Assembly (NCBI RefSeq): GCF_029227915.1
Contig: NC_079877.1
Location: 8,370,001-8,434,000 of the forward strand
DNA: 64,000 nucleotides
DNA from: Hydractinia symbiolongicarpus
Taxonomy: Eukaryota; Cnidaria; Hydrozoa; Anthoathecata; Hydractiniidae
Direction of reading: 5' to 3'
Shown here: positions 9,684-64,000 of the stretch, in pieces
Layout of the letters: every line of letters starts with the position of its first letter
Numbering within the stretch: position 1 is the first letter of the stretch
Notes under the pieces: generated by a model
The model's input: only the letters and a program-made list of their open reading frames with translations
Database searches by the model: none
What the model was told of the DNA's origin: nothing
Made by a program: the position numbers and the translations under genes

Positions 9684-9742
9684 TTTCAATCCACCGACCT
9701 CTAGGTTATGGGCCCAGCACGCTTCCTCTGCGCCACTCTGCT
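9684..9742 (-). pseudogene. truncated tRNA-iMet(CAT) at array edge
   Basis: The array enters inside this gene: about 13 bases of its 3' end (acceptor and T-arm 3' half) are replaced by satellite. The anticodon and 5' half remain. It also differs from consensus by a changed base in the T-loop and one in the anticodon stem. Confidence 0.9.
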
Positions 9743-9830
9743 GAAGGTAGGTAAGCTGAAATGTGTCTGATGTAAGGTGTAGTTTAGTATTGCGAACAGC
9801 ACTCGAACTATGACCTTTTTAGCATTTCCA

Positions 9831-9903
9831 GGGGGATTAGCTCACATGGTAGAGCGCTCGCTTTGCATGCGAGAGGTACCGGGATCGATGCCCGGATCCT
9901 CCA
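9831..9903 (+). tRNA. tRNA-Ala(TGC), unit 1
   Basis: Reference copy. 73 nt with a full cloverleaf: acceptor GGGGGAT/ATCCTCC, D-stem GCTC/GAGC, anticodon stem CTCGC/GCGAG around TTTGCAT, T-stem CCGGG/CCCGG with loop ATCGATG, discriminator A. A-box TAGCTCACATGG and B-box GGGATCGATGCC are the internal Pol III promoter. It reads GCA and, by wobble, GCG. The G3:T70 wobble pair, the alanine identity element, is present. The core is almost identical to Ala-AGC of the same unit, so the two genes probably arose by duplication. It has no intron and no encoded CCA. Confidence 0.97.
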
Positions 9904-9911
9904 AGACGATG

Positions 9912-9916
9912 TTTTT
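9912..9916 (+). terminator. Pol III terminator of Ala-TGC (unit 1)
   Basis: Run of five T starting 9 bases after the gene end; conserved in all units. Confidence 0.85.
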
Positions 9917-9995
9917 AATTTATTTATTTTTATACTGATTTCAGTAGTTGCCAATGGTCATAAGAGGATTTATGATGCTCCTAAGATTACCTGGT

Positions 9996-9997
<2 letters not shown>

Positions 9998-10032
<35 letters not shown>
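9998..10032 (+). repeat. (TAA)n microsatellite in Ala-TGC to Asp spacer
   Basis: A TAA tract lies at this place in every unit and varies from about 6 to 15 repeats. It is the main source of unit length polymorphism. The surrounding ~275-bp spacer has no other recognisable feature. Confidence 0.95.
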
Positions 10033-10034
<2 letters not shown>

Positions 10035-10177
10035 AAACCGCGCTGCATATGTCTAGAGCATTTCTTGCTGTTTAATTTCGCATTGAGAATATACACAGTT
10101 TCAGCTTTTAACATGATCGACCGTGTGGCATTCGGGCATTGACGCCATCGCGAACATATTATTTAAATATGAACTCG

Positions 10178-10249
10178 TCCTCGGTAGTATAGTGGTAAGT
10201 ATCCCCGCCTGTCACGCGGGAGACCGGGGTTCGATTCCCCGCCGGGGAG
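10178..10249 (+). tRNA. tRNA-Asp(GTC), unit 1
   Basis: Reference copy. 72 nt; acceptor TCCTCGG/CCGGGGA with a T4:G69 wobble, anticodon stem CCCGC/GCGGG around CTGTCAC, T-stem CGGGG/CCCCG with loop TTCGATT, discriminator G. The B-box GGTTCGATTCC is a perfect match to the Pol III consensus. GTC decodes GAC and GAT. It lies ~275 bp after Ala-TGC and 73 bp before Lys, and a run of five T follows. Confidence 0.97.
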
Positions 10250-10253
10250 GTTC

Positions 10254-10258
10254 TTTTT
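10254..10258 (+). terminator. Pol III terminator of Asp (unit 1)
   Basis: Run of five T starting 5 bases after the gene end; conserved in all units with an Asp gene. Confidence 0.85.
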
Positions 10259-10322
10259 ATCTTGTCAATGTTTCGTTTCACGTCATTAGCGTTCGCGGGA
10301 CTGTCCGGGAAGACAGATTTAC

Positions 10323-10395
10323 GCCCGGTTAGCTCAGTCGGTAGAGCATCAGACTTTTAATCTGAGGGTCGCGGGTTCGAGTCCTTCATCGGGCG
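10323..10395 (+). tRNA. tRNA-Lys(TTT), unit 1
   Basis: Reference copy. 73 nt; acceptor GCCCGGT/ATCGGGC, D-stem GCTC/GAGC, anticodon stem TCAGA/TCTGA around CTTTTAA, B-box GGTTCGAGTCC, discriminator G. It decodes AAA and AAG by wobble. Consensus copies have a C50/T64 mismatch in the T-stem. In this copy C63 is also T. No T4 terminator follows before Ala-AGC. Confidence 0.95.
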
Positions 10396-10502
10396 TAACA
10401 ATTATTTGGTACGATGGTGAACTAACTTTCACCACAATGTCTTATCGAAAGAGGATGAATAACGTAACATTTGCGGAGTGGCAAAGGCGAAGCAAAATTG
10501 AT
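10396..10502 (+). other. Lys to Ala-AGC spacer without terminator
   Basis: 107 bp with no run of four T on the + strand; the longest is TTT, in ttattt just after the Lys gene. The same holds in the other units I read. Read-through into Ala-AGC is therefore possible. The interrupted run ttattt could act as a weak non-canonical terminator. Confidence 0.75.
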
Positions 10503-10575
10503 GGGGAACTAGCTCAGATGGTAGAGCGCTCGCTTAGCATGCGAGAGGTACCGGGATTGATGCCTGGGTTCTCCA
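10503..10575 (+). tRNA. tRNA-Ala(AGC), unit 1
   Basis: 73 nt; acceptor GGGGAAC/GTTCTCC with G3:T70, anticodon stem CTCGC/GCGAG around TTAGCAT, discriminator A. A34 would be edited to inosine to read GCT, GCC and GCA. It lies 107 bp behind Lys with no clear terminator between them. In this copy C56 is T, damaging the B-box, and C63 is T; consensus copies follow from unit 6. Confidence 0.9.
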
Positions 10576-10580
10576 ATACC

Positions 10581-10584
10581 TTTT
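10581..10584 (+). terminator. Pol III terminator of Ala-AGC (unit 1)
   Basis: Run of four T 5 bases after the gene end. Confidence 0.8.
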
Positions 10585-10644
10585 CCATAGGCGTAAAATA
10601 AATGAAATTTGCGCAGAGCAATTTTGCAGCAGCGTTCGTGTCAT

Positions 10645-10760
10645 GTCGGGATGGCCGAGCGGTCTAGGGCGCCAGACTTAAGACAAAATGTTCTTCCACT
10701 TATCGCGTGGAGAATTCTGGTCCTCGAATGAGGGCGTGGGTTCGAATCCCACTTCCGACA
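10645..10760 (+). tRNA. tRNA-Leu, anticodon TAA, with intron, unit 1
   Basis: Same gene as the Leu-CAA of other units, but the anticodon loop reads CTTAAG, giving anticodon TAA (codon UUA). The body also has A to G in the D-loop and a changed intron base. The intron position and the long variable arm typical of Leu are kept. Confidence 0.85.
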
Positions 10761-10762
10761 AA

Positions 10763-10766
10763 TTTT
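10763..10766 (+). terminator. Pol III terminator of Leu (unit 1)
   Basis: Run of four T just after the gene end, within the short spacer to the convergent Tyr gene. Confidence 0.8.
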
Positions 10767-10791
10767 CCTGGCCACACAAAATTTTAGGCCT

Positions 10792-10795
10792 AAAA
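10792..10795 (-). terminator. Pol III terminator of Tyr (unit 1)
   Basis: AAAA on the + strand is a TTTT run 6 bases past the Tyr 3' end; a second lies at 10779-10781 and beyond on the minus strand. Confidence 0.8.
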
Positions 10796-10801
10796 TGCAA
10801 G

Positions 10802-10895
10802 TCCACCGAGCCGGATTTGAACCAGCGACCTAAGGATGCCTGAGTGGTATAAGTTCGTCTACAGTCCTCCGCTCTACCAACTGAGCTATCGGTGG
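10802..10895 (-). tRNA. tRNA-Tyr(GTA) with 21-nt intron, unit 1
   Basis: Reference copy. 94 nt with a 21-nt intron after G37 (10835-10855 on the + strand); mature length 73. Acceptor CCACCGA/TCGGTGG, D-stem GCTC/GAGC, loop CTGTAGA, T-loop TTCAAAT, discriminator A. The intron needs tRNA splicing endonuclease, as in almost all eukaryotic Tyr genes. It converges with Leu, 41 bp away. Confidence 0.96.
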
Positions 10896-10965
10896 ATGTA
10901 GCATCGTAGAGTTCTTGTGCAGGACTATGCAGGTCATGTAACGTTTGTAGTATGACGTGGTTTTT

Positions 10966-10969
10966 AAAA
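10966..10969 (-). terminator. Pol III terminator of iMet (unit 1)
   Basis: AAAA on the + strand gives a TTTT run about 20 bases past the iMet 3' end. Confidence 0.8.
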
Positions 10970-10988
10970 TGATGCGATAGCTCGCACG

Positions 10989-11060
10989 TAGCAGAGGGTG
11001 GTTTCGATCCACCGACCTCTGGGTTATGGGCCCAGCACGCTTCCTCTGCGCCACTCTGCT
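10989..11060 (-). tRNA. tRNA-iMet(CAT), initiator, unit 1
   Basis: Reference copy. 72 nt; acceptor AGCAGAG/CTCTGCT, discriminator A. Initiator hallmarks are A1:T72, the three G:C pairs next to the loop (GGG 29-31, CCC 39-41), loop CCCATAA with C33, and T-loop ATCGAAA with A54 and A60. It is divergent from the Ala-TGC of the next unit. Confidence 0.97.
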
Positions 11061-11148
11061 GAAGGTAGGTAAGCTGAAATGTGTCTGATGTAAGGTGTAG
11101 TTCAGTATTGCGAACGGCACTCGAACTATGACATTTTTAACTTTTCCA
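11061..11148. promoter_or_regulatory. divergent iMet / Ala-TGC interval
   Basis: 88 bp between the 5' ends of the divergent iMet (-) and Ala-TGC (+) genes, strongly conserved in length and sequence between units. It must hold the start sites and leaders of both genes. I see no classical TATA box. Pol III promoters (A and B boxes) are internal to the tRNA genes. Confidence 0.6.
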
Positions 11149-11221
11149 GGGCGATTAGCTCACATGGTAGAGCGCTCGCTTTGCATGCGAGAGGTTCCGG
11201 GATCGATGCCCGGATCCTCCA
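11149..11221 (+). tRNA. tRNA-Ala(TGC), unit 2
   Basis: G4 is C, opposing C69 in the acceptor; A48 is T. Confidence 0.8.
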
Positions 11222-11492
11222 AGACGATGTTTTTAATTTATTTATTTTTATACTAATTTCAGTAGTTGCCAATGGTCATAAGAGGATTTATGATGCTCCT
11301 AAGATTACCTGGTATTAATAATAATAATAATAATAGTAATAATAATACTAAACCGCGCTGCATATGTCTAGAGCATTTCTTGCTGTTTAATTTTGCATTG
11401 ACAATATACACAGTTTCAGCTTTTAACATGATCGACCGTGTGGCATTCGGGCATTGACGCCATCGCGAACATATTATTTAAATATGAACTCG

Positions 11493-11563
11493 TCCTCGGT
11501 AGTATAGTGGTAAGTATCCCCGCCTGTCACGCGGAGACCGGGGTTCGATTCCCCGCCGGGGAG
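11493..11563 (+). tRNA. tRNA-Asp(GTC), unit 2, 1-nt deletion
   Basis: 71 nt: one G is missing from the 3' anticodon stem/variable loop. Possibly non-functional. Confidence 0.65.
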
Positions 11564-11636
11564 GTTCTTTTTATCTTGTCAATGTTTCGTTTCACGTCAG
11601 TAGCGTTCGCGGGACTGTTCGGGAAGACAGATTTAC

Positions 11637-11709
11637 GCCCGGTTAGCTCAGTCGGTAGAGCATCAGACTTTTAATCTGAGGGTCGCGGGTTCGAGTCCCT
11701 CATCGGGCG
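11637..11709 (+). tRNA. tRNA-Lys(TTT), unit 2
   Basis: Consensus. Confidence 0.95.
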
Positions 11710-11816
11710 TAACAATTATTTGGTACGATGGTGAACTAACTTTCACCACAATGTCTTGTCGAAAGAGGATGAATAACGTAACATTTGCGGAGTGGCAAAG
11801 GCGAAGCAAACTTGAT

Positions 11817-11889
11817 GGGGAACTAGCTCAGATGGTAGAGCGCTCGCTTAGCATGCTAGAAGTACCGGGATCGATGCCCGGGTTCTCCA
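11817..11889 (+). tRNA. tRNA-Ala(AGC), unit 2
   Basis: G41 is T, breaking an anticodon-stem pair; G45 is A. Confidence 0.75.
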
Positions 11890-11957
11890 ATGCCTTTTCC
11901 ATAGGCGTAAAATAAATGAAATTTGCGCAGAGCAATTTGCAGCAGCGTTCGTGTCAT

Positions 11958-12073
11958 GTCGGGATGGCCGAGCGGTCTAAGGCGCCAGACTCAAGACAAA
12001 ATGTTCTTCCACTCATCGCGTGGAGAATTCTGGTCCTCGAATGAGGGCGTGGGTTCAAATCCCACTTCCGACA
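11958..12073 (+). tRNA. tRNA-Leu(CAA) with 32-nt intron, unit 2
   Basis: Reference description. 116 nt; acceptor GTCGGGA/TTCCGAC, anticodon stem CCAGA/TCTGG, loop CTCAAG then a 32-nt intron after G37 (11996-12027), long variable arm GTCCTCGAATGAGGGC typical of class II Leu tRNAs, discriminator A. The intron contains a tccac/gtgga hairpin. It reads UUG. In this copy G57 is A. Confidence 0.93.
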
Positions 12074-12114
12074 ACTTTTCCCTGCCACACAAAATTTTAG
12101 GCCTAAAATGCAAG

Positions 12115-12208
12115 TCCACGGAGCCGGATTTGAACCAGCGACCTAAGGATGCCTGAGTGGTATAAGTTGGTCTACAGTCCTCCGCTCTACCAACTGAGCT
12201 ATCGGTGG
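12115..12208 (-). tRNA. tRNA-Tyr(GTA) with intron, unit 2
   Basis: G68 is C, opposing C5 in the acceptor; one intron base differs. Confidence 0.8.
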
Positions 12209-12301
12209 ATGTAGCATCGTAGAGTTCTTGTGCAGGACTATGCAGGTCATGTAACGTTTGTAGTATGACGTGGTTTTTAAAATGATGCAATAGCTCGCAC
12301 G

Positions 12302-12373
12302 TAGCAGAGGGTGGTTTCGATCCACCGACCTCTGGGTTATGGGCCCAGCACGCTTCCTCTGCGCCACTCTGTT
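12302..12373 (-). tRNA. tRNA-iMet(CAT), unit 2
   Basis: G2 is A, opposing C71. Confidence 0.85.
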
Positions 12374-12461
12374 GAAGGTAGGTAAGCTGAAATGTGTCTG
12401 ATGTAAGGTGTAGTTTAGTATTGCGAACGGCACTCGAACTATGACCTTTTTAACTTTTCCA

Positions 12462-12534
12462 GGGCGATTAGCTCACATGGTAGAGCGCTCGCTTTGCATG
12501 CGAGAGGTACCGGGATCAATGCCCGGATCCTCCA
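12462..12534 (+). tRNA. tRNA-Ala(TGC), unit 3
   Basis: G4 is C as in unit 2; G57 is A. Confidence 0.8.
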
Positions 12535-12626
12535 AGACGATGTTTTTAATTTATTTATTTTTATACCAATTTCAGTAGTTGCCAATGGTCATAAGAGGAT
12601 TTATGATGCTCCTAAGATTACCTGGT

Positions 12627-12659
<33 letters not shown>

Positions 12660-12802
12660 AAACCGCGCTGCATATGTCTAGAGCATTTCTTGCTGTTTAA
12701 TTTCGCATTGACAATATACACAGTTTCAGCTTTTAACATGATCGACCGTGTGGCATTCGGGCATTGACGCCATCGAGAACATATTATTTAAATATGAACT
12801 CG

Positions 12803-12874
12803 TCCTCGGTAGTATAGTGGTAAGTATCCCCGCCTGTCACGCGGGAGACCGGGGTTCGATTCCCCGCCGGGGAG
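12803..12874 (+). tRNA. tRNA-Asp(GTC), unit 3
   Basis: Consensus. Confidence 0.95.
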
Positions 12875-12947
12875 GTTCTTTTTATCTTGTCAATGTTTCG
12901 TTTCACGTCAGTAGCGTTCGCGGGACTGTCCGGGAAGACAGACTTAC

Positions 12948-13020
12948 GCCCGGTTAGCTCAGTCGGTAGAGCATCAGACTTTTAATCTGAGGGTCGCGGG
13001 TTCGAGTCCCTCATCGGGCG
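12948..13020 (+). tRNA. tRNA-Lys(TTT), unit 3
   Basis: Consensus. Confidence 0.95.
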
Positions 13021-13772: not shown

Positions 13773-13845
13773 GGGGGATTAGCTCACATGGTAGAGCGCT
13801 CGCTTTGCATGCGAGAGGTACCGGGATCGATGCCCGGATCCTCCA
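13773..13845 (+). tRNA. tRNA-Ala(TGC), unit 4
   Basis: Consensus. Unit 4 retains only this gene and iMet. Confidence 0.95.
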
Positions 13846-13937
13846 AGACGATGTTTTTAATTTATTTATTTTTATACTAATTTCAGTAGTTGCCAATGGT
13901 CATAAGAGGATTTATGATGCTCCTAAGATTACCTGGT

Positions 13938-13970
<33 letters not shown>

Positions 13971-14093
13971 AAACCGCGCTGCATATGTCTAGAGCATTTC
14001 TTGCTGTTTAATTTCGCATTGACAATATACACAGTTTCAGCTTTTAACATGATCGACCGTGTGGCATTCGGGCATTGACGCCATCGAGAACAT

Positions 14094-14114
14094 ATTATTT
14101 AAACTTGATGGACT
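14094..14114. other. deletion scar, unit 4
   Basis: The Asp-proximal spacer (tatttaaa) joins cttgatgg, normally just upstream of Ala-AGC, and then actatgcagg, normally between Tyr and iMet. Short shared stretches (aaa, gg) mark both joints. Asp, Lys, Ala-AGC, Leu and Tyr are gone, about 740 bp. Confidence 0.9.
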
Positions 14115-14176
14115 ATGCAGGTCATGTCACGTTTGTAGTATGACGTGGTTTTTAAAATGATGCGATAGCTCGCACG

Positions 14177-14248
14177 TAGCAGAGGGTGGTTTCGATCCAC
14201 CGACCTCTGGGTTATGGGCCCAGCACGCTTCCTCTGCGCCACTCTGAT
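14177..14248 (-). tRNA. tRNA-iMet(CAT), unit 4
   Basis: G2 is T, opposing C71. Confidence 0.85.
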
Positions 14249-14336
14249 GAAGGTAGGTAAGCTGAAATGTGTCTGATGTAAGGTGTAGTTTAGTATTGCG
14301 AACAGCACTCGAACTATGACCTTTTTACCATTTCCA

Positions 14337-31280: not shown

Positions 31281-31353
31281 GGGGGATTAGCTCACATGGT
31301 AGAGCGCTCGCTTTGCATGCGAGAGGTACCGGGATTGATGGCCGGATCCTCCA
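31281..31353 (+). tRNA. tRNA-Ala(TGC), unit 18
   Basis: C56 is T and C61 is G. Confidence 0.72.
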
Positions 31354-31615
31354 AGACGATGTTTTTAATTTATTTATTTTCATACTAATTTCAGTAGTTG
31401 CCAATGGTCATAAGAGGATTTATGATGCTCCTAAGATTACCTGGTATTAATAATAATAATAATAGTAATACTAAACCGCGCTGCATATGTCTAGATCATT
31501 TCTTGCTGTTTAATTTCGCATTGACAATATACACAGTTTCAGCTTTTAACATGATCGACCGTGTGGCATTCGGGCATTGACGCCATCGCGAACATATTAT
31601 TTAAATATGAACTCG

Positions 31616-31687
31616 TCCTCGGTAGTATAGTGGTAAGTATCCCCGCCTGTCACGCGGGAGACCGGGGTTCGATTCCCCGCCGGGGAG
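31616..31687 (+). tRNA. tRNA-Asp(GTC), unit 18
   Basis: Consensus. Confidence 0.95.
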
Positions 31688-31760
31688 GTTCTTTTTATCT
31701 TGTCAATGTTTCGTTTCCCGTCAGCAGCGTTCGCGGGACTGTCCGGGAATACAGATTTAC

Positions 31761-31833
31761 GCCCGGTTAGCTCAGTCGGTAGAGCATCAGACTTTTAATC
31801 TGAGGGTCGCGGGTTCGAGTCCCTCATCGGGCG
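31761..31833 (+). tRNA. tRNA-Lys(TTT), unit 18
   Basis: Consensus. Confidence 0.95.
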
Positions 31834-31940
31834 TAACAATTATTTGGTACGATGGTGAACTAACTTTCACCACAATGTCTTGTCGAAAGAGGATGAATAA
31901 CGTAACATTTGCGGAGTGGCAAAGGCGAAGCAAACTTGAT

Positions 31941-32013
31941 GGGGAACTAGCTCAGATGGTAGAGCGCTCGCTTAGCATGCGAGAGGTACCGGGATCGATG
32001 CCCGGGTTCTCCA
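31941..32013 (+). tRNA. tRNA-Ala(AGC), unit 18
   Basis: Consensus. Confidence 0.95.
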
Positions 32014-32081
32014 ATGCCTTTTTCATAGGCGTAAAATAAATGAAATTTGCGCAGAGCAATTTGCAGCCGCGTTCGTGTCAT

Positions 32082-32197
32082 GTCGGGATGGCCGAGCGGT
32101 CTAAGGCGCCAGACTCAAGACAAAATGTTCTTCCACTCATCGCGTGGAGAATTCTGGTCCTCGAATGAGGCCGTGGGTTCGAATCCCACTTCCGACA
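32082..32197 (+). tRNA. tRNA-Leu(CAA) with intron, unit 18
   Basis: One G to C at the end of the variable arm. Confidence 0.92.
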
Positions 32198-32238
32198 ACT
32201 TTTCCCTGCCACACAAAATTTTAGGCCTAAAATGCAAG

Positions 32239-32332
32239 TCCACCGAGCCAGATTTGAACCAGCGACCTAAGGATGCCTGAGTAGTATAAGTTCGTCTACA
32301 GTCCTCCGCTCTACCAACTGAGCTATCGGTGG
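32239..32332 (-). tRNA. tRNA-Tyr(GTA) with intron, unit 18
   Basis: C62 is T; one intron base differs. Confidence 0.92.
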
Positions 32333-32425
32333 ATGTAGCATCGTACAGTTCTTGTGCAGGACTATGCAGGTCATGTCACGTTTGTAGTATGACGTGGTTT
32401 TTAAAATGATGCGATAGCTCGCACG

Positions 32426-32497
32426 TAGCAGAGGGTGGTTTCGATCCACCGACCTCTGGGTTATGGGCCCAGCACGCTTCCTCTGCGCCACTCTGCT
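32426..32497 (-). tRNA. tRNA-iMet(CAT), unit 18
   Basis: Consensus. Confidence 0.95.
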
Positions 32498-32585
32498 CAA
32501 GGTAGGTAAGCTGAAATGTGTCTGATGTAAGGTGTAGTTTAGTATTGCGAACAGCACTCGAACTATGACCTTTTTACCATTTCCA

Positions 32586-32658
32586 GAGGGATTAGCTCAC
32601 ATGGTAGAGCGCTCGCTTTGCATGCAAGGGGTACTGGGATCGATGCCCGGATCCTCCA
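32586..32658 (+). tRNA. tRNA-Ala(TGC), unit 19
   Basis: G2 is A, G41 is A, A44 is G and C50 is T. Confidence 0.72.
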
Positions 32659-32923
32659 AGACGATGTTTTTAATTTATTTATTTTTATACTAATTTCAGT
32701 AGTTGCCAATGGTCATAAGAGGATTTATGATGCTCCTAAGATTACCTGGTATTAATAATAATAATAATAATAATAATACTAAACCGCGCTGCATATGTCT
32801 AGAGCATTTCTTGCTGTTTAATTTCGCATTGACAATATACACAGTTTCAGCTTTTAACATGATCGACCGTGAGGCATTCGGGCATTGACGCCATCGCGAA
32901 CATATTATTTAAATATGAACTCG

Positions 32924-32995
32924 TCCTCGGTAGTATAGTGGTAAGTATCCCCGCCTGTCACGCGGGAGGCCAGGGTTCGATTCCCCGCCGGGGAG
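32924..32995 (+). tRNA. tRNA-Asp(GTC), unit 19
   Basis: A variable-loop A is G; G50 is A, opposing C64. Confidence 0.85.
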
Positions 32996-33068
32996 GTTCT
33001 TTTTATCTTGTCAATGTTTCGTTTCACGTCAGTAGCGTTCGCGGGAATGTCCGGGAATACAGTTTTAC

Positions 33069-33141
33069 GCCCGGTTAGCTCAGTCGGTAGAGCATCAGAC
33101 TTTTAATCTGAGGGTCGCGGGTTCGAGTCCCTCATCGGGCG
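33069..33141 (+). tRNA. tRNA-Lys(TTT), unit 19
   Basis: Consensus. Confidence 0.95.
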
Positions 33142-33248
33142 TAACAATTATTTGGTACGATGGTGAACTAACTATCACCACAATGTCTTGTCGAAAGAGG
33201 ATGAATAACGTAACATTTGCAGAGTGGCAAGAGCGAAGCAAATTTGAT

Positions 33249-33321
33249 GGGGAACTAGCTCAGATGGTAGAGCGCTCGCTTAGCATGCGAGAGGTACCGG
33301 GATCGATGCCCGGGTTCTCCA
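33249..33321 (+). tRNA. tRNA-Ala(AGC), unit 19
   Basis: Consensus. Confidence 0.95.
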
Positions 33322-33389
33322 ATGTCTTTTCCATAGGCGTAAAATAAATGAAATTTGCGCAGAGCAATTTGCAGCAGCGTTCGTGTCAT

Positions 33390-33505
33390 GTCGGAATGGC
33401 CGAGCGGTCTAAGGCGCCAGACTCAAGACAAAATGTTCTTCCACTCATCGCGTGGAGAATTCTGGTCCTCGAATGAGGGCGTGGGTGCGAATCCCACTTC
33501 CGACA
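33390..33505 (+). tRNA. tRNA-Leu(CAA) with intron, unit 19
   Basis: G6 is A and T54 is G. Confidence 0.82.
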
Positions 33506-33546
33506 ACTTTTCCCTGCCACACAAAATTTTAGGCCTAAAATGCAAG

Positions 33547-33640
33547 TCCACCGAGCCGGATTTGAACCAGCGACCTAAGGATGCCTGAGTGGTATAAGTT
33601 CGTCTACAGTCCTCCGCTCTACCAACTGAGCTATCGGTGG
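33547..33640 (-). tRNA. tRNA-Tyr(GTA) with intron, unit 19
   Basis: Consensus. Confidence 0.95.
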
Positions 33641-33733
33641 ATGTAGCATCGTACAGTTCTTGTGCAGGACTATGCAGGTCATGTCACGTTTGTAGTATGA
33701 CGTGGTTTTTAAAATGATGCGATAGCTCGCACG

Positions 33734-33805
33734 TAGCAGAGGGTGGTTTCGATCCACCGACCTCTGGGTTATGGGCCCAGCACGCTTCCTCTGCGCCACT
33801 CTGCT
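33734..33805 (-). tRNA. tRNA-iMet(CAT), unit 19
   Basis: Consensus. Confidence 0.95.
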
Positions 33806-33893
33806 GAAGGTAGGTAAGCTGAAATGTGTCTGATGTAAGGTGTAGTTTAGTATTGCGAACAGCACTCGAACTATGACCTTTTTACCATTTCCA

Positions 33894-33966
33894 GGGGGAT
33901 TAGCTCACATGGTAGAGAGCTCGCTTTGCATGCGAGAGGTACCGGGATCGATGGCCGGATCCTCCA
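33894..33966 (+). tRNA. tRNA-Ala(TGC), unit 20
   Basis: C25 is A and C61 is G. Confidence 0.72.
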
Positions 33967-34228
33967 AGACGATGTTTTTAATTTATTTATTTTCATACTA
34001 ATTTCAGTAGTTGCCAATGGTCATAAGAGGATTTATGATGCTCCTAAGATTACCTGGTATTAATAATAATAATAATAGTAATACTAAACCGCGCTGCATA
34101 TGTCTAGAGCATTTCTTGCTGTTTAATTTCGCATTGACAATATACACAGTTTCAGCTTTTAACATGATCGACCGTGTGGCATTCGGGCATTGACGCCATC
34201 GCGAACATATTATTTAAATATGAACTCG

Positions 34229-34300
34229 TCCTCGGTAGTATAGTGGTAAGTATCCCCGCCTGTCACGCGGGAGACCGGGGTTCGATTCCCCGCCGGGGAG
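34229..34300 (+). tRNA. tRNA-Asp(GTC), unit 20
   Basis: Consensus. Confidence 0.95.
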
Positions 34301-34373
34301 GTTCTTTTTATCTTGTCAATGTTTCGTTTCACGTCAGCAGCGTTCGCGGGACTGTCCGGGAATACAGATTTAC

Positions 34374-34446
34374 GCCCGGTTAGCTCAGTCGGTAGAGCAT
34401 CAGACTTTTAATCTGAGGGTCGCGGGTTCGAGTCCCTCATCGGGCG
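34374..34446 (+). tRNA. tRNA-Lys(TTT), unit 20
   Basis: Consensus. Confidence 0.95.
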
Positions 34447-34553
34447 TAACAATTATTTGGTACGATGGTGAACTAACTTTCACCACAATGTCTTGTCGAA
34501 AGAGGATGAATAACGTAACATTTGCGGAGTGGCAAAGGCGAAGCAAACTTGAT

Positions 34554-34626
34554 GGGGAACTAGCTCAGATGGTTGAGCGCTCGCTTAGCATGCGAGAGGT
34601 ACCGGGATCGATGCCCGGGTTCTCCA
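34554..34626 (+). tRNA. tRNA-Ala(AGC), unit 20
   Basis: The conserved A21 is T. Confidence 0.85.
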
Positions 34627-34694
34627 ATGCCTTTTCCATAGGCGTAAAATAAATGAAATTTGCGCAGAGCAATTTGCAGCCGCGTTCGTGTCAT

Positions 34695-34810
34695 GTCGGG
34701 ATGGCCGAGCGGTCTAAGGCGCCAGACTCAAGACAAAATGTTCTTCCACTCATCGCGTGGAGAATTCTGGTCCTCGAATGAGGGCGTGGGTTCGAATCCC
34801 ACTTCCGACA
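34695..34810 (+). tRNA. tRNA-Leu(CAA) with intron, unit 20
   Basis: Consensus. Confidence 0.95.
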
Positions 34811-34851
34811 ACTTTTCCCTGCCACACAAAAATTTAGGCCTAAAATGCAAG

Positions 34852-34945
34852 TCCACCGAGCCAGATTTGAACCAGCGACCTAAGGATGCCTGAGTGGTAT
34901 AAGTTCGTCTACAGTCCTCCGCTCTACCAACTGAGCTATCGCTGG
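34852..34945 (-). tRNA. tRNA-Tyr(GTA) with intron, unit 20
   Basis: C4 is G; C62 is T. Confidence 0.82.
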
Positions 34946-35038
34946 ATGTAGCATCGTACAGTTCTTGTGCAGGACTATGCAGGTCATGTCACGTTTGTAG
35001 TATGACGTGGTTTTTAAAATGATGCGATAGCTCGCACG

Positions 35039-35110
35039 TAGCAGAGGGTGGTTTCGATCCACCGACCTCTGGGTTATGGGCCCAGCACGCTTCCTCTGCG
35101 CCACTCTGCT
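35039..35110 (-). tRNA. tRNA-iMet(CAT), unit 20
   Basis: Consensus. Confidence 0.95.
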
Positions 35111-35198
35111 CAAGGTAGGTAAGCTGAAATGTGTCTGATGTAAGGTGTAGTTTAGTATTGCGAACAGCACTCGAACTATGACCTTTTTACCATTTCCA

Positions 35199-35271
35199 GG
35201 GGGATTAGCTCACATGGTAGAGCGCTCGCTTTGCATGCAAGGGGTACCGGGATCGATGCCCGGATCCTCCA
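35199..35271 (+). tRNA. tRNA-Ala(TGC), unit 21
   Basis: G41 is A; A44 is G. Confidence 0.82.
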
Positions 35272-35363
35272 AGACGATGTTTTTAATTTATTTATTTTTA
35301 TACTAATTTCAGTAGTTGCCAATGGTCATAAGAGGATTTATGATGCTCCTAAGATTACCTGGT

Positions 35364-35365
<2 letters not shown>

Positions 35366-35409
<44 letters not shown>
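35366..35409 (+). repeat. longest (TAA)n tract, unit 21
   Basis: About 44 bp of uninterrupted TAA, tied for the longest in the window with the unit 25 tract. Confidence 0.95.
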
Positions 35410-35411
<2 letters not shown>

Positions 35412-35554
35412 AAACCGCGCTGCATATGTCTAGAGCATTTCTTGCTGTTTAATTTCGCATTGACAATATACACAGTTTCAGCTTTTAACATGATCGACCG
35501 TGTGGCATTCGGGCATTGACGCCATCGCGAACATATTATTTAAATATGAACTCG

Positions 35555-35626
35555 TCCTCGGTAGTATAATGGTAAGTATCCCCGCCTGTCACGCGGGAGA
35601 CCGGGGTTCGATTCCCCGCCGGGGAG
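35555..35626 (+). tRNA. tRNA-Asp(GTC), unit 21
   Basis: D-loop G to A. Confidence 0.93.
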
Positions 35627-35699
35627 GTTCTTTTTATCTTGTCAATGTTTCGTTTCACGTCAGTAGCGTTCGCGGGACTGTCCGGGAATACAGATTTAC

Positions 35700-36137: not shown

Positions 36138-36178
36138 ACTTTTCCCTGCCACACAAAATTTTAGGCCTAAAATGCAAG

Positions 36179-37902: not shown

Positions 37903-38167
37903 AGACGATGTTTTTAATTTATTTATTTTTATACTAATTTCAGTAGTTGCCAATGGTCATAAGAGGATTTATGATGCTCCTAAGATTACCTGGTATTAAT
38001 AATAATAATAATAATAATAATACTAAACCGCGCTGCATATGTCTAGAGCATTTCTTGCTGTTTAATTTCGCATTGACAATATACACAGTTTCAGCTTTTA
38101 ACATGATCGACCGTGAGGCATTCGGGCATTGACGCCATCGCGAACATATTATTTAAATATGAACTCG

Positions 38168-38239
38168 TCCTCGGTAGTATAGTGGTAAGTATCCCCGCCT
38201 GTCACGCGGGAGGCCAGGGTTCGATTCCCCGCCGGGGAG
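38168..38239 (+). tRNA. tRNA-Asp(GTC), unit 23
   Basis: Same changes as unit 19. Confidence 0.85.
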
Positions 38240-38312
38240 GTTCTTTTTATCTTGTCAATGTTTCGTTTCACGTCAGTAGCGTTCGCGGGAATGTCCGGGA
38301 ATACAGTTTTAC

Positions 38313-38385
38313 GCCCGGTTAGCTCAGTCGGTAGAGCATCAGACTTTTAATCTGAGGGTCGCGGGTTCGAGTCCCTCATCGGGCG
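38313..38385 (+). tRNA. tRNA-Lys(TTT), unit 23
   Basis: Consensus. Confidence 0.95.
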
Positions 38386-38492
38386 TAACAATTATTTGGT
38401 ACGATGGTGAACTAACTATCACCACAATGTCTTGTCGAAAGAGGATGAATAACGTAACATTTGCAGAGTGGCAAGAGCGAAGCAAATTTGAT

Positions 38493-38565
38493 GGGGAACT
38501 AGCTCAGATGGTAGAGCGCTCGCTTAGCATGCGAGAGGTACCGGGATCGATGCCCGGGTTCTCCA
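38493..38565 (+). tRNA. tRNA-Ala(AGC), unit 23
   Basis: Consensus. Confidence 0.95.
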
Positions 38566-38633
38566 ATGTCTTTTCCATAGGCGTAAAATAAATGAAATTT
38601 GCGCAGAGCAATTTGCAGCAGCGTTCGTGTCAT

Positions 38634-38749
38634 GTCGGAATGGCCGAGCGGTCTAAGGCGCCAGACTCAAGACAAAATGTTCTTCCACTCATCGCGTGGA
38701 GAATTCTGGTCCTCGAATGAGGGCGTGGGTGCGAATCCCACTTCCGACA
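38634..38749 (+). tRNA. tRNA-Leu(CAA) with intron, unit 23
   Basis: G6 is A and T54 is G, as in unit 19. Confidence 0.82.
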
Positions 38750-38790
38750 ACTTTTCCCTGCCACACAAAATTTTAGGCCTAAAATGCAAG

Positions 38791-38884
38791 TCCACCGAGC
38801 CGGATTTGAACCAGCGACCTAAGGATGCCTGAGTGGTATAAGTTCGTCTACAGTCCTCCGCTCTACCAACTGAGCTATCGGTGG
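38791..38884 (-). tRNA. tRNA-Tyr(GTA) with intron, unit 23
   Basis: Consensus. Confidence 0.95.
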
Positions 38885-38977
38885 ATGTAGCATCGTACAG
38901 TTCGTGTGCAGGACTATGCAGGTCATGTCACGTTTGTAGTATGACGTGGTTTTTAAAATGATGCGATAGCTCGCACG

Positions 38978-39049
38978 TAGCAGAGGGTGGTTTCGATCCA
39001 CCGACCTCTGGGTTATGGGCCCAGCACGCTTCCTCTGCGCCACTCTGCT
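38978..39049 (-). tRNA. tRNA-iMet(CAT), unit 23
   Basis: Consensus. Confidence 0.95.
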
Positions 39050-39137
39050 GAAGGTAGGTAAGCTGAAATGTGTCTGATGTAAGGTGTAGTTTAGTATTGC
39101 GAACAGCACTCGAACTATGACCTTTTTACCATTTCCA

Positions 39138-39210
39138 GGGGGATTAGCTCACATGGTAGAGAGCTGGCTTTGCATGCGAGAGGTACCGGGATCGATGGCC
39201 GGATCCTCCA
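39138..39210 (+). tRNA. tRNA-Ala(TGC), unit 24
   Basis: C25 is A, C61 is G as in unit 20, and C29 is also G. Confidence 0.65.
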
Positions 39211-39472
39211 AGACGATGTTTTTAATTTATTTATTTTCATACTAATTTCAGTAGTTGCCAATGGTCATAAGAGGATTTATGATGCTCCTAAGATTACCTG
39301 GTATTAATAATAATAATAATAGTAATACTAAACCGCGCTGCATATGTCTAGAGCATTTCTTGCTGTTTAATTTCGCATTGACAATATACACAGTTTCAGC
39401 TTTTAACATGATCGACCGTGTGGCATTCGGGCATTGACGCCATCGCGAACATATTATTTAAATATGAACTCG

Positions 39473-39544
39473 TCCTCGGTAGTATAGTGGTAAGTATCCC
39501 CGCCTGTCACGCGGGAGACCGGGGTTCGATTCCCCGCCGGGGAG
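39473..39544 (+). tRNA. tRNA-Asp(GTC), unit 24
   Basis: Consensus. Confidence 0.95.
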
Positions 39545-39617
39545 GTTCTTTTTATCTTGTCAATGTTTCGTTTCACGTCAGCAGCGTTCGCGGGACTGTC
39601 CGGGAATACAGATTTAC

Positions 39618-39690
39618 GCCCGGTTAGCTCAGTCGGTAGAGCATCAGACTTTTAATCTGAGGGTCGCGGGTTCGAGTCCCTCATCGGGCG
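39618..39690 (+). tRNA. tRNA-Lys(TTT), unit 24
   Basis: Consensus. Confidence 0.95.
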
Positions 39691-39797
39691 TAACAATTAT
39701 TTGGTACGATGGTGAACTAACTTTCACCACAATGTCTTGTCGAAAGAGGATGAATAACGTAACATTTGCGGAGTGGCAAAGGCGAAGCAAACTTGAT

Positions 39798-39870
39798 GGG
39801 GAACTAGCTCAGATGGTTGAGCGCTCGCTTAGCATGCGAGAGGTACCGGGATCGATGCCCGGGTTCTCCA
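39798..39870 (+). tRNA. tRNA-Ala(AGC), unit 24
   Basis: A21 is T, as in unit 20. Confidence 0.85.
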
Positions 39871-39938
39871 ATGCCTTTTCCATAGGCGTAAAATAAATGA
39901 AATTTGCGCAGAGCAATTTGCAGCCGCGTTCGTGTCAT

Positions 39939-40054
39939 GTCGGGATGGCCGAGCGGTCTAAGGCGCCAGACTCAAGACAAAATGTTCTTCCACTCATCGC
40001 GTGGAGAATTCTGGTCCTCGAATGAGGGCGTGGGTTCGAATCCCACTTCCGACA
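39939..40054 (+). tRNA. tRNA-Leu(CAA) with intron, unit 24
   Basis: Consensus. Confidence 0.95.
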
Positions 40055-40095
40055 ACTTTTCCCTGCCACACAAAAATTTAGGCCTAAAATGCAAG

Positions 40096-40189
40096 TCCAC
40101 CGAGCCAGATTTGAACCAGCGACCTAAGGATGCCTGAGTGGTATAAGTTCGTCTACAGTCCTCCGCTCTACCAACTGAGCTATCGCTGG
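40096..40189 (-). tRNA. tRNA-Tyr(GTA) with intron, unit 24
   Basis: C4 is G; C62 is T, as in unit 20. Confidence 0.82.
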
Positions 40190-40282
40190 ATGTAGCATCG
40201 TACAGTTCTTGTGCAGGACTATGCAGGTCATGTCACGTTTGTAGTATGACGTGGTTTTTAAAATGATGCGATAGCTCGCACG

Positions 40283-40354
40283 TAGCAGAGGGTGGTTTCG
40301 ATCCACCGACCTCTGGGTTATGGGCCCAGCACGCTTCCTCTGCGCCACTCTGCT
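40283..40354 (-). tRNA. tRNA-iMet(CAT), unit 24
   Basis: Consensus. Confidence 0.95.
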
Positions 40355-40442
40355 CAAGGTAGGTAAGCTGAAATGTGTCTGATGTAAGGTGTAGTTTAGT
40401 ATTGCGAACAGCACTCGAACTATGACCTTTTTACCATTTCCA

Positions 40443-40515
40443 GGGGGATTAGCTCACATGGTAGAGCGCTCGCTTTGCATGCAAGGGGTACCGGGATCGA
40501 TGCCCGGATCCTCCA
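40443..40515 (+). tRNA. tRNA-Ala(TGC), unit 25
   Basis: G41 is A; A44 is G, as in unit 21. Confidence 0.82.
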
Positions 40516-40607
40516 AGACGATGTTTTTAATTTATTTATTTTTATACTAATTTCAGTAGTTGCCAATGGTCATAAGAGGATTTATGATGCTCCTAAGATT
40601 ACCTGGT

Positions 40608-40609
<2 letters not shown>

Positions 40610-40653
<44 letters not shown>
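40610..40653 (+). repeat. longest (TAA)n tract, unit 25
   Basis: Same length as the unit 21 tract, exactly 5,244 bp away, supporting recent block duplication because such tracts change length quickly. Confidence 0.95.
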
Positions 40654-40655
<2 letters not shown>

Positions 40656-40798
40656 AAACCGCGCTGCATATGTCTAGAGCATTTCTTGCTGTTTAATTTC
40701 GCATTGACAATATACACAGTTTCAGCTTTTAACATGATCGACCGTGTGGCATTCGGGCATTGACGCCATCGCGAACATATTATTTAAATATGAACTCG

Positions 40799-40870
40799 TC
40801 CTCGGTAGTATAATGGTAAGTATCCCCGCCTGTCACGCGGGAGACCGGGGTTCGATTCCCCGCCGGGGAG
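40799..40870 (+). tRNA. tRNA-Asp(GTC), unit 25
   Basis: D-loop G to A. Confidence 0.93.
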
Positions 40871-40943
40871 GTTCTTTTTATCTTGTCAATGTTTCGTTTC
40901 ACGTCAGTAGCGTTCGCGGGACTGTCCGGGAATACAGATTTAC

Positions 40944-41016
40944 GCCCGGTTAGCTCAGTCGGTAGAGCATCAGACTTTTAATCTGAGGGTCGCGGGTTCG
41001 AGTCCCTCATCGGGCG
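40944..41016 (+). tRNA. tRNA-Lys(TTT), unit 25
   Basis: Consensus; the spacer after it has the unit 21 insertion. Confidence 0.95.
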
Positions 41017-41124
41017 TAACAATTATTTGGTACGATGGTGAACTAACTTTCACCACAATGTCTTGTCGAAAGAGGATGAATTAAAGTAACATTTGCGGAG
41101 TGGCAAAGGCGAAGCAAACTTGAT

Positions 41125-41197
41125 GGGGAACTAGCTCAGATGGTAGAGCGCTCGCTTAGCATGCGAGAGGTACCGGGATCGATGCCCGGGTTCTCCA
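41125..41197 (+). tRNA. tRNA-Ala(AGC), unit 25
   Basis: Consensus. Confidence 0.95.
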
Positions 41198-41265
41198 ATG
41201 CCTTTTCCATAGGCGTAAAATAATTGAAATTTGCGCAGAGCAATTTGAAGCAGCGTTCGTGTCAT

Positions 41266-41381
41266 GTCGGGATGGCCGAGCGGTCTAAGGCGCCAGACTC
41301 AAGACAAAATGTTCTTCCACTCATCGCGTGGAGAATTCTGGTCCTCGAATGAGGGCGTGGGTTCGAATCCCACTTCCGACA
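41266..41381 (+). tRNA. tRNA-Leu(CAA) with intron, unit 25
   Basis: Consensus. Confidence 0.95.
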
Positions 41382-41422
41382 ACTTTTCCCTGCCACACAA
41401 AATTTTAGGCCTAAAATGCAAG

Positions 41423-41516
41423 TCCACTGAGCCGGATTTGAACCAGCGACCTAAGGATGCCTGAGTGGTATAATATCGTCTACAGTCCTCCGCTCTACCA
41501 ACTGAGCTATCGGTGG
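41423..41516 (-). tRNA. tRNA-Tyr(GTA) with intron, unit 25
   Basis: G68 is A, opposing C5; intron variant as in units 6 and 11. Confidence 0.85.
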
Positions 41517-41609
41517 ATGTAGCATCGTACAGTTCTTGTGCAGGACTATGCAGGTCATGTCACGTTTGTAGTATGACGTGGTTTTTAAAATGATGCGATA
41601 GCTCGCACG

Positions 41610-41681
41610 TAGCAGAGGGTGGTTTCGATCCACCGACCTCTGGGTTATGGGCCCAGCACGCTTTCTCTGCGCCACTCTGCA
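41610..41681 (-). tRNA. tRNA-iMet(CAT), unit 25
   Basis: A1 is T, so the initiator A1:T72 pair is lost; D-arm G to A. Confidence 0.8.
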
Positions 41682-41769
41682 GAAGGTAGGTAAGCTGAAA
41701 TGTGTCTGATGTAAGGTGTAGTTTAGTATTGCGAACAGCACTCGAACTATGACCTTTTTATCATTTCCA

Positions 41770-62029: not shown

Positions 62030-62102
62030 GGGGAACTAGCTCAGATGGTAGAGCGCTCGCTTAGCATGCGAGAGGTACCGGGATCGATGCCCGGGTTCTC
62101 CA
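62030..62102 (+). tRNA. tRNA-Ala(AGC), unit 41
   Basis: Consensus. Confidence 0.95.
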
Positions 62103-62170
62103 ATGCCTTTTCCATAGGCGTAAAATAAATGAAATTTGCGCATAGCAATTTGCAGCAGCGTTCGTGTCAT

Positions 62171-62286
62171 GTTGGGATGGCCGAGCGGTCTAAGGCGCCA
62201 GACTCAAGACAAAATGTTCTTCCACTCATCGCGTGGAGAATTCTGGTCCTCGAATGAGGGCGTGGGTTCGAATCCCACTTCCGACA
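62171..62286 (+). tRNA. tRNA-Leu(CAA) with intron, unit 41
   Basis: C3 is T, a wobble with G70. Confidence 0.9.
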
Positions 62287-62327
62287 ACTTTTCCCTGCCA
62301 CACAAAATTTTAGGCCTAAAATGCAAG

Positions 62328-62421
62328 TCCACCGAGCCGGATTTGAACCAGCGACCTAAGGATGCCTGAGTGGTATAAGTTCGTCTACAGTCCTCCGCTC
62401 TACCAACTGAGCTATCGGTGG
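62328..62421 (-). tRNA. tRNA-Tyr(GTA) with intron, unit 41
   Basis: Consensus. Confidence 0.95.
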
Positions 62422-62514
62422 ATGTAGCATCGTACAGTTCTTGTGAAGGACTATGCAGGTCATGTCACGTTTGTAGTATGACGTGGTTTTTAAAATGATG
62501 CGATAGCTCGCACG

Positions 62515-62586
62515 TAGCAGAGGGTGGTTTCGATCCACCGACCTCTGGGTTATGGGCCCAGCACGCTTCCTCTGCGCCACTCTGCT
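62515..62586 (-). tRNA. tRNA-iMet(CAT), unit 41
   Basis: Consensus. Confidence 0.95.
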
Positions 62587-62674
62587 GAAGGTAGGTAAGC
62601 TGAAATGTGTCTGATGTAAGGTGTAGTTTAGTATTGCGAACAGCAATCGAACTATGACATTTTTACCAGTTCCA

Positions 62675-62747
62675 GGGGGATTAGCTCACATGGTAGAGCG
62701 CTCGCTTTGCATGCGAGAGGTACCGGGATCGATGCCCGGATCCTCCA
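62675..62747 (+). tRNA. tRNA-Ala(TGC), unit 42
   Basis: Consensus. Confidence 0.95.
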
Positions 62748-63012
62748 AGACGATGTTTTTAATTTATTTATTTTTATACTAATTTCAGTAGTTGCCAATG
62801 GTCCTAAGAGGATTTATGATGCTCCTAAGATTACCTGGTATTAATAATAATAATAATAATAATAATACTAAACCGCGCTGCATATGTCTAGAGCATTTCT
62901 TGCTGTTTAATTTCGATTTGACAATATACACAGTTTCAGCTTTTAACATGATCGACCGTGTGGCATTCGGGCATTGACGCCATCGCGAACATATTATTTA
63001 AATATGAACTCG

Positions 63013-63084
63013 TCCTCGGTAGTATAGTGGTAAGTATCCCCGCCTGTCACGCGGGAGACCGGGGTTCGATTCCCCGCCGAGGAG
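63013..63084 (+). tRNA. tRNA-Asp(GTC), unit 42
   Basis: G69 is A, turning the T4:G69 wobble into a T:A pair. Confidence 0.93.
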
Positions 63085-63157
63085 GTTCTTTTTATCTTGT
63101 CAATGTTTCGTTTCACGTCAGTAGCGTTCGCGGGACTGTCCGGGAATACAGATTTAC

Positions 63158-63230
63158 GCCCGGTTAGCTCAGTCGGTAGAGCATCAGACTTTTAATCTGA
63201 GGGTCGCGGGTTCGAGTCCCTCATCGGGCG
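63158..63230 (+). tRNA. tRNA-Lys(TTT), unit 42
   Basis: Consensus. Confidence 0.95.
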
Positions 63231-63337
63231 TAACAATTATTTGGTACGATGGTGAACTAACTTTCACCACAATGTCTTGTCGAAAGAGGATGAATAACGT
63301 AACATTTGCGGAGTGGCAAAGGCGAAGCAAACTTGAT

Positions 63338-63410
63338 GGGGAACTAGCTCAGATGGTAGAGCGCTCGCTTAGCATGCGAGAGGTACCGGGATCGATGCCC
63401 GGGTTCTCCA
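63338..63410 (+). tRNA. tRNA-Ala(AGC), unit 42
   Basis: Consensus. Confidence 0.95.
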
Positions 63411-63478
63411 ATGCCTTTTCCATAGGCGTAAAATAAATGAAATTTGCGCAGAGCAATTTGCAGCAGCGTTCGTGTCAT

Positions 63479-63594
63479 GTCGGGATGGCCGAGCGGTCTA
63501 AGGCGCCAGACTCAAGACAAAATGTTCTTCCACTCATCGCGTGGAGAATTCTGGTCCTCGAATGAGGGCGTGGGTTCGAATCCCACTTCCGACA
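63479..63594 (+). tRNA. tRNA-Leu(CAA) with intron, unit 42
   Basis: Consensus. Confidence 0.95.
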
Positions 63595-63635
63595 ACTTTT
63601 CCCTGCCACACAAAATTTTAGGCCTAAAATGCAAG

Positions 63636-63729
63636 TCCACCGAGCCGGATTTGAACCAGCGACCTAAGGATGCCGGAGTGGTATAAGTTCGTCTACAGTC
63701 CTCCGCTCTACCAACTGAGCTATCGGTGG
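63636..63729 (-). tRNA. tRNA-Tyr(GTA) with intron, unit 42
   Basis: Exons consensus; one intron base differs. Confidence 0.94.
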
Positions 63730-63822
63730 ATGTAGCATCGTACAGTTCTTGTGCAGGACTATGCAGGTCATGTCACGTTTGTAGTATGACGTGGTTTTTA
63801 AAATGATGCGATAGCTCGCACG

Positions 63823-63894
63823 TAGCAGAGGGTGGTTTCGATTCACCGACCTCTAATTTATGGGCCCAGCACGCTTCCTCTGCGCCACTCTGCT
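63823..63894 (-). tRNA. tRNA-iMet(CAT), altered anticodon stem, unit 42
   Basis: Same C39-C41 to ATT change as unit 40, plus G53 to A in the T-stem. Confidence 0.72.
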
Positions 63895-63982
63895 GAAGGT
63901 AGGTAAGCTGAAATGTGTCTGATGTAAGGTGTAGTTTAGTATTGCGAACAGCATTTGAACTATGACCTTTTTACCATTTCCA

Positions 63983-64000
63983 GGGGGATTAGCTCACATG
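63983..64000 (+). tRNA. tRNA-Ala(TGC), unit 43, cut by window end
   Basis: First 18 bases match the consensus; the gene continues beyond the window, so the array does too. Confidence 0.9.

Follow-up and report, generated by a model that had tools for sequence, protein, structure and literature searches.

What part does a locus play at which seven transfer RNA (tRNA) genes follow each other, unit after unit, for hundreds of kilobases? The question is raised by scaffold 3 (C3) of the hydrozoan Hydractinia symbiolongicarpus, of which we analysed the 64-kb stretch C3:8,370,001-8,434,000, hereafter the window, against a genome assembly whose 76 contigs total 480,894,487 bases. Most of the window (9684-64000, + strand) is the left part of a tandem tRNA gene array that occupies C3:8,379,684-9,022,337. 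We consider it fairly probable that this array works in the manner of ribosomal DNA (rDNA), as a dosage array whose units are kept alike by exchange and whose single copies are expendable, and we predict that it is expressed.

With one copy of each gene as query, blastn located 290 tRNA loci in the window, namely 42 of Ala-TGC, 43 of initiator Met (iMet) and 41 each of Asp, Lys, Ala-AGC, Leu and Tyr. Complete genes number 289, exactly as counted in an earlier note on this DNA, and the remaining locus is the iMet gene within which the array starts at base 9684 (9684-9742, - strand, 59 of 72 bases, its end being set by the length of the match). Each unit runs Ala-TGC, Asp, Lys, Ala-AGC and Leu-CAA on the + strand, then Tyr and iMet on the - strand; the gene set and order had been read correctly in that note, to which we add the strands. 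Its 42 cassette repeats proved to be 41 full units and one short unit, with the edge piece besides, and not 42 full ones; the unit that follows the 41 full units begins at 63983 and is cut by the end of the window. Setting aside this last unit and the short one (564 bp), full units in the window measure 1245-1327 bp, and genes take up 573 of the 1305 bases of the consensus. The short unit (13773-14336, + strand) retains Ala-TGC and iMet only, about 750 unit bases being absent. By eye, its junction contains some seven bases resembling the stretch that precedes Ala-AGC, as if the template had been switched twice.

In the first full unit, U01 (9831-11148, + strand, counted from Ala-TGC up to, but not including, the following Ala-TGC), both ARAGORN and Rfam identified tRNA-Ala-TGC (9831-9903), tRNA-Asp-GTC (10178-10249), tRNA-Lys-TTT (10323-10395) and tRNA-Ala-AGC (10503-10575), all on the + strand. 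Rfam and blastn identified tRNA-Leu (10645-10760, + strand), with an intron of 32 nt as assigned here, and tRNA-Tyr-GTA (10802-10895, - strand), with an intron of 21 nt as assigned here, while the initiator tRNA-Met (10989-11060, - strand) was found by all three. ARAGORN, which was run with the bacterial code, gave just 222 genes in the window because the Tyr and Leu genes have introns: it missed almost all Leu genes and many of those for Tyr, and named Tyr 'Leu-tag'. Both were recovered by the Rfam scan, which covered bases 1-13000. The consensus genes are well formed, those for Ala-TGC, Ala-AGC, Asp, Leu, Tyr and iMet being free of mispairs, and a TTTT lies no more than 20 bases downstream of six of the seven. 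The Leu anticodon is CAA in 39 of the 41 window units; it is TAA in unit 1, and one Leu gene has lost anticodon bases. The other anticodon changes in the window are TAT in the iMet gene of two units and TTC in one Asp gene.

The array continues past the window, as the earlier note had said, and the window holds only about one twelfth of it. The 200 kb to the right of the window are array sequence without N, apart from two inserts of 2.6 and 4.3 kb. All 20 probes placed between 8.65 and 9.021 Mb on C3 fell in the array, those at 9.03, 9.04, 9.05, 9.06 and 9.12 Mb did not, and the last unit is cut short at C3:9,022,337, giving a total span of 642,654 bp (about 643 kb). At about 1,303 bp per unit, we estimate that the array comprises roughly 490 units and about 3,400 tRNA genes, 386 kb of it having been only probed. 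Genome-wide, a 26-base word from the spacer is matched exactly 473 times forward and 8 times in reverse; the array sequence analysed base by base (254 kb) accounts for 184 of the forward matches. A tRNA-derived short interspersed nuclear element was ruled out, as the units, among the matches listed, are grouped in a single long array and in small sites elsewhere on C3 and are not dispersed. The 2.6-kb insert is AT-rich, and the 4.3-kb insert holds an intact-looking long interspersed nuclear element (LINE) with an open frame of 950 amino acids, whose reverse transcriptase frame matched a 99% identical protein in a protein search. This LINE (L015:2594-6826) lies within one unit, in the spacer between Ala-TGC and Asp, and has two long frames, of 426 and 950 amino acids, the former beginning within array sequence.

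Is such an array new? Its units of several tRNA genes stand head to tail and are homogenised, spacers included, and its copies, near-identical, evenly spaced and in the tens to hundreds, have the features of Hydractinia noncoding RNA (ncRNA) arrays. The tandem unit of Xenopus, of 3.2 kb and with several tRNA genes, also includes iMet; it otherwise has a different gene set and is longer than the Hydractinia unit. Such arrays are already on record for the species itself. The main text of a 2024 study describes tandem ncRNA arrays, among them tRNAs for each of the 20 amino acids, in H. symbiolongicarpus and H. echinata, and its authors argue against an artefact and mention similar arrays in Nematostella (PMC11067881). 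These arrays are like the present one in species and in their tens to hundreds of near-identical tandem copies; they were described on an older assembly of 407 Mb, and the main-text account gives no gene order, unit length or array length (PMC11067881). The earlier note had not recognised this gene set and order, a judgement that holds for the exact seven-gene unit, of which we found no description in the open-access literature (mostly listings and passages, the supplements of PMC11067881 excluded), and that does not hold for the kind of array.

Passages on other organisms provide further points of comparison. Nematostella has more than 17000 tRNA genes (tDNAs), 89% of them clustered (PMC2888827), and this survey of cnidarian and fish clusters likewise reports very many clustered tDNAs in a cnidarian and clusters of fifty and more; these are mostly mixed pairs, the account is one of survey statistics, and its cluster section contains no such seven-gene unit. 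The repeat at human 1q23.3 shares with the Hydractinia array several tRNA genes on both strands, with units that are 98% alike and number 9-43 per allele, but its unit is 7.3 kb long with five tRNA genes taking up less than 6% of it, compared with seven genes in 1.3 kb here (PMC4041453). In Entamoeba, too, the units stand in tandem, each holding as many as five tRNA genes; concerted evolution has been proposed for them and many copies are suspected to be silent. In contrast to the Hydractinia array, in which 192 of 1274 genes are altered, the roughly 25 kinds of Entamoeba array hold almost all tRNA genes, and clear pseudogene copies are not reported for them (PMC2652664). The Ser-Tyr-Tyr cluster of Arabidopsis is alike in design, with tandem tRNA units and a core whose flanks are richer in defective copies, and differs in being a far smaller plant cluster with three genes of two kinds per unit; 13 of its 54 Tyr genes yield tRNA-like RNAs (PMC12308677). 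In Xenopus, arrayed tRNA genes of the oocyte type are active as the embryonic genome switches on (PMC11500080).

How much of the tRNA gene set does the array hold? Counted by the exact anticodon arm, a count that genes with another arm escape, iMet has 454 matches genome-wide. Outside the array there are two on C1, six at 3.35 Mb, eight at 4.459-4.478 Mb and two that are intact and solitary, the pattern used for solitary genes (5' half matched exactly, any base but T two positions before the gene) being one that some may escape. By subtraction, about 434 matches belong to the array, two of 11 forward matches being without an assigned place, and this figure is near the 432 extrapolated from the 171 iMet matches in the part analysed base by base. 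The earlier note had seen in the array a large source of a skewed tRNA set; as far as predicted gene copies go, this appears to be right for iMet (about 434 of 454) and for Tyr. The two C1 matches were rejected as genes, since they have a CCA end and a changed 5' part and ARAGORN found no tRNA in them. The flanks of these two copies (L066 and L067; C1:11.837 and 15.422 Mb) are alike, and they look as if copied from a mature tRNA.

Are the units kept alike, and how? We aligned 182 full-length units from the window and its extension, omitting cut, short and interrupted ones. Pairwise divergence averages 1.64% (0.08-3.06%) in the window and 0.90% over the 182 units, with four identical pairs among all pairs; within the first 41, the next 59 and the last 82 units it is 1.59, 0.76 and 0.58%, which bears out the homogenised array of the earlier note. 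Taken per 15 units, the distance to the consensus drops from 0.99 to 0.23-0.41%, and to 0.12% in the final bin, which has just two units. At the far right edge, units match the consensus at 98.4-99.2%, close to inner units, whereas those at the left edge are more diverged. A block of four units, U18-U21 (31281-36524, + strand), is followed directly by a second copy of itself, U22-U25 (36525-41769, + strand), the two differing unit by unit by 0.15, 0.08, 0.08 and 0.45%. All four combinations of variants occur at 295 of 3240 pairs of sites in the window, and at 47 of 561 pairs of transversions; part of these may stem from repeated mutation. Near the right end, a fused unit starts with Ala-AGC and continues with the spacer and the Asp gene that normally stand behind Ala-TGC, as from an unequal exchange between the two Ala genes. 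Low divergence, the duplicated block, the mosaic variants and the Ala-Ala fusion unit are the grounds on which we attribute the likeness of units to exchange.

Does selection also act on single copies? If it did, the genes of such an array would be expected to vary less among copies than the spacers. In the window, variable columns make up 23.2% of the genes and 17.2% of the spacers, with an odds ratio of 1.22 (z 1.39) once base and CpG context are allowed for. Over the 182 units the ratio of changes in exons to those in spacers is 1.20 (1.02-1.41), and the rDNA-like pattern of genes varying less than spacers is absent from them. In the same units, changes that break stems are not depleted (133 observed against 124.1 expected); changes that keep them stand at 45 against 44.8, those in loops at 125 against 108.7, in introns at 28 against 25.8 and in spacers at 300 against 328.5. 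Distinct anticodon changes, 7 against 10.8 expected, are too few to judge. Pairs, length and anticodon are kept in 1082 of 1274 genes, the other 192 having a break, a length change or an anticodon change, and all seven genes are intact in 64 of the 182 units; in the first 41 units, 211 of 287 genes are intact, and a count with the Leu anticodon set one base off had 210 of 287 and four units with all seven intact. No constraint among copies was measurable, and each copy looks expendable.

The genes in fact carry more changes than the spacers do. All seven lie above the spacer rate (1.13-1.44, jointly 1.20, or 1.21 without the Ala genes), and when the gene map was shifted around the unit in 260 ways, 0.8% of the shifts reached this excess. 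Relative to spacer rates, the 20 bases upstream of genes stand at 1.42 and the 20 bases downstream at 0.80. Six of the seven upstream stretches are above expectation, Leu being the exception, and the joint upstream value was not attained in any of 5000 draws of seven spacer windows taken at random. Mutagenesis associated with transcription is a known effect in tRNA genes and would fit as the source of these extra mutations; other causes are possible.

It is here that the chief rival to a dosage array has to be weighed. The array could be a silent or mostly silent satellite, that is, a working cluster of seven genes amplified as a heterochromatic passenger while a few solitary genes supply the tRNAs. 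Genes that are no better preserved than spacers are what such a satellite would show, the left edge of the array adjoins satellites, and the two inserts, one with its intact-looking LINE, would be at home there. Intact solitary iMet and Lys genes exist, as do 14 other Tyr genes. Silence also has precedents, since the tandem Ser/Tyr cluster of Arabidopsis is silent in most tissues (PMC12308677) and most predicted zebrafish tRNA genes are reported to lack open chromatin (PMC11574265). Two facts speak for a working array instead: the search outside array-like settings turned up just two intact iMet genes, and the extra mutations are located in the genes and upstream of them. On balance, we regard a silent array as rather unlikely.

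Several of our own results nevertheless weigh against a transcribed, exchange-driven dosage array. The absence of constraint is equally compatible with a silent one. The split into upstream and downstream stretches was chosen after the result on the genes and is exploratory. Transitions in genes have no clear strand bias (C>T at 61 of 152 C, G>A at 69 of 185 G) and therefore give no help to transcription as the source of the extra mutations. A first test of stems in the window, made without CpG context, had 34.0% breaks where 42.6% were expected; with context there were 48 breaks against 53.4, and purifying selection on stems was not borne out, the weak first hint of it being gone with CpG context and more units. 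As to exchange, how far apart two units lie makes little difference to their divergence (0.79% when adjacent, 0.93% at lag 100), and a scan of the 182 units found no further four-unit block below 0.16%; exchange therefore looks long-range. The divergence of edge units is one-sided, the right edge not mirroring the left. Lastly, Tyr genes whose second intron base is other than C number 16, of which two are in the array and at least 14 elsewhere.

What surrounds the array bears on two further explanations. To its left, 18.6 copies of a 373-bp satellite (10-6920) are followed by an inverted stretch of the same satellite (6920-7578) and by 10.4 copies of a 203-bp satellite (7574-9684) that abuts the array. 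At 3.35 Mb on C3, a smaller site of six full units, half a unit and two edge pieces is preceded by both satellites (373 and 203 bp), with a junction in iMet nearly as at the array and a flank 94% alike to the array flank over the best 972 bases. At 4.46-4.48 Mb lies a pair of blocks, each with two to three full units, in reverse orientation and with the 203-bp satellite alongside. Some 11 kb past the right end of the array, a 3-kb stretch with iMet, Pro-CGG and Lys-TTT has an inverted copy at 4.448 Mb that is 99.8% identical. Given these copies at 3.35, 4.448 and 4.46-4.48 Mb, both edges of the array have copies elsewhere on the scaffold. The inverted pair, of at least 3 kb (L070 and L071; C3:4.448 and 9.033 Mb), is some 4.6 Mb apart, one member standing beside the right end of the array; it could be a route to inversions, or an effect of assembly. 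By eye, at the right-hand limit of the 3.35-Mb site (L008, about 1665-2110; C3:3.36 Mb) the (TAA)n of the Ala-TGC/Asp spacer is expanded to several hundred bases, and the array ends there.

The edge copies would suit a chief role in chromosome structure, as a boundary, a replication site or a site of exchange, with tRNA output secondary. A role of this kind has been proposed for the human 1q23.3 array, which has a CTCF site (PMC4041453). No structural element came to light in our analysis, which made no search aimed at one. A boundary would hardly need 643 kb, and we think such a role very improbable. The same near-identical copies of edge segments might indicate that the assembly has inflated the number of units or misordered them, the more so as the HiFi read N50 is 13.2 kb, or about ten units (PMC10411563). 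Against this, the 182 units differ by 0.90% on average with only four identical pairs, letting accurate reads be placed, the 200 kb to the right of the window hold no N, and RNA arrays occur in other Hydractinia assemblies too (PMC11067881). An inflated or misordered array seems to us very improbable; a collapse of units in assembly is likewise possible.

The Lys gene of the unit calls for a separate remark. Its consensus has no TTTT in 110 bases downstream, and 39 of the 41 window copies have a mismatch, C50-U64, in the T stem. The idea that this mismatch marks a defective lineage was rejected, as a solitary Lys gene is identical over the tRNA; the mismatch is therefore normal in the species and no sign of decay. 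A search for Lys genes with another base at position 50, made with the 27 preceding bases exact and which other Lys types would escape, gave one match, in the array. A run of seven T stands shortly behind the solitary Lys gene, whereas array Lys is without TTTT before Ala-AGC (10396-10500), and array Lys and Ala-AGC might share one transcript. Between the converging Leu and Tyr genes (10776-10800), a palindrome, ATTTTAGGCCTAAAAT, was noticed by eye, with a T run on each strand.

Returning to the dosage array, we picture the locus as a tRNA gene macrosatellite on scaffold 3, in which each 1.30-kb unit would comprise seven separate predicted RNA polymerase III genes. The array of about 643 kb would act like an rDNA locus, as a store of gene dosage for these tRNAs, the initiator tRNA foremost. 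Unequal crossing-over or gene conversion between units would keep them alike, and any one copy would be free to decay, with selection presumably acting on the array as a whole. Such a scheme would entail transcription of each gene by RNA polymerase III, activity in the germ line and selection on total dosage. More tentatively, the supply of iMet may rest almost wholly on the array, with selection on the sum of copies, neutral decay of each and a mutation rate raised by transcription; we hold this fuller version to be possible rather than probable.

For the biology of Hydractinia, the array places most of the iMet gene copies detected in an animal genome at a single unstable locus. If the fuller version is true, the length of the array would set the dosage of initiator tRNA, perhaps differing between colonies and in stem cells. 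The array also offers a long, well-resolved example where one can measure selection acting on individual tRNA gene copies, and none was seen. The variants among its units make it possible to ask which of the copies are transcribed and what sets the dosage of tRNA and, as Hydractinia is a laboratory model, both copy number and expression are directly testable.

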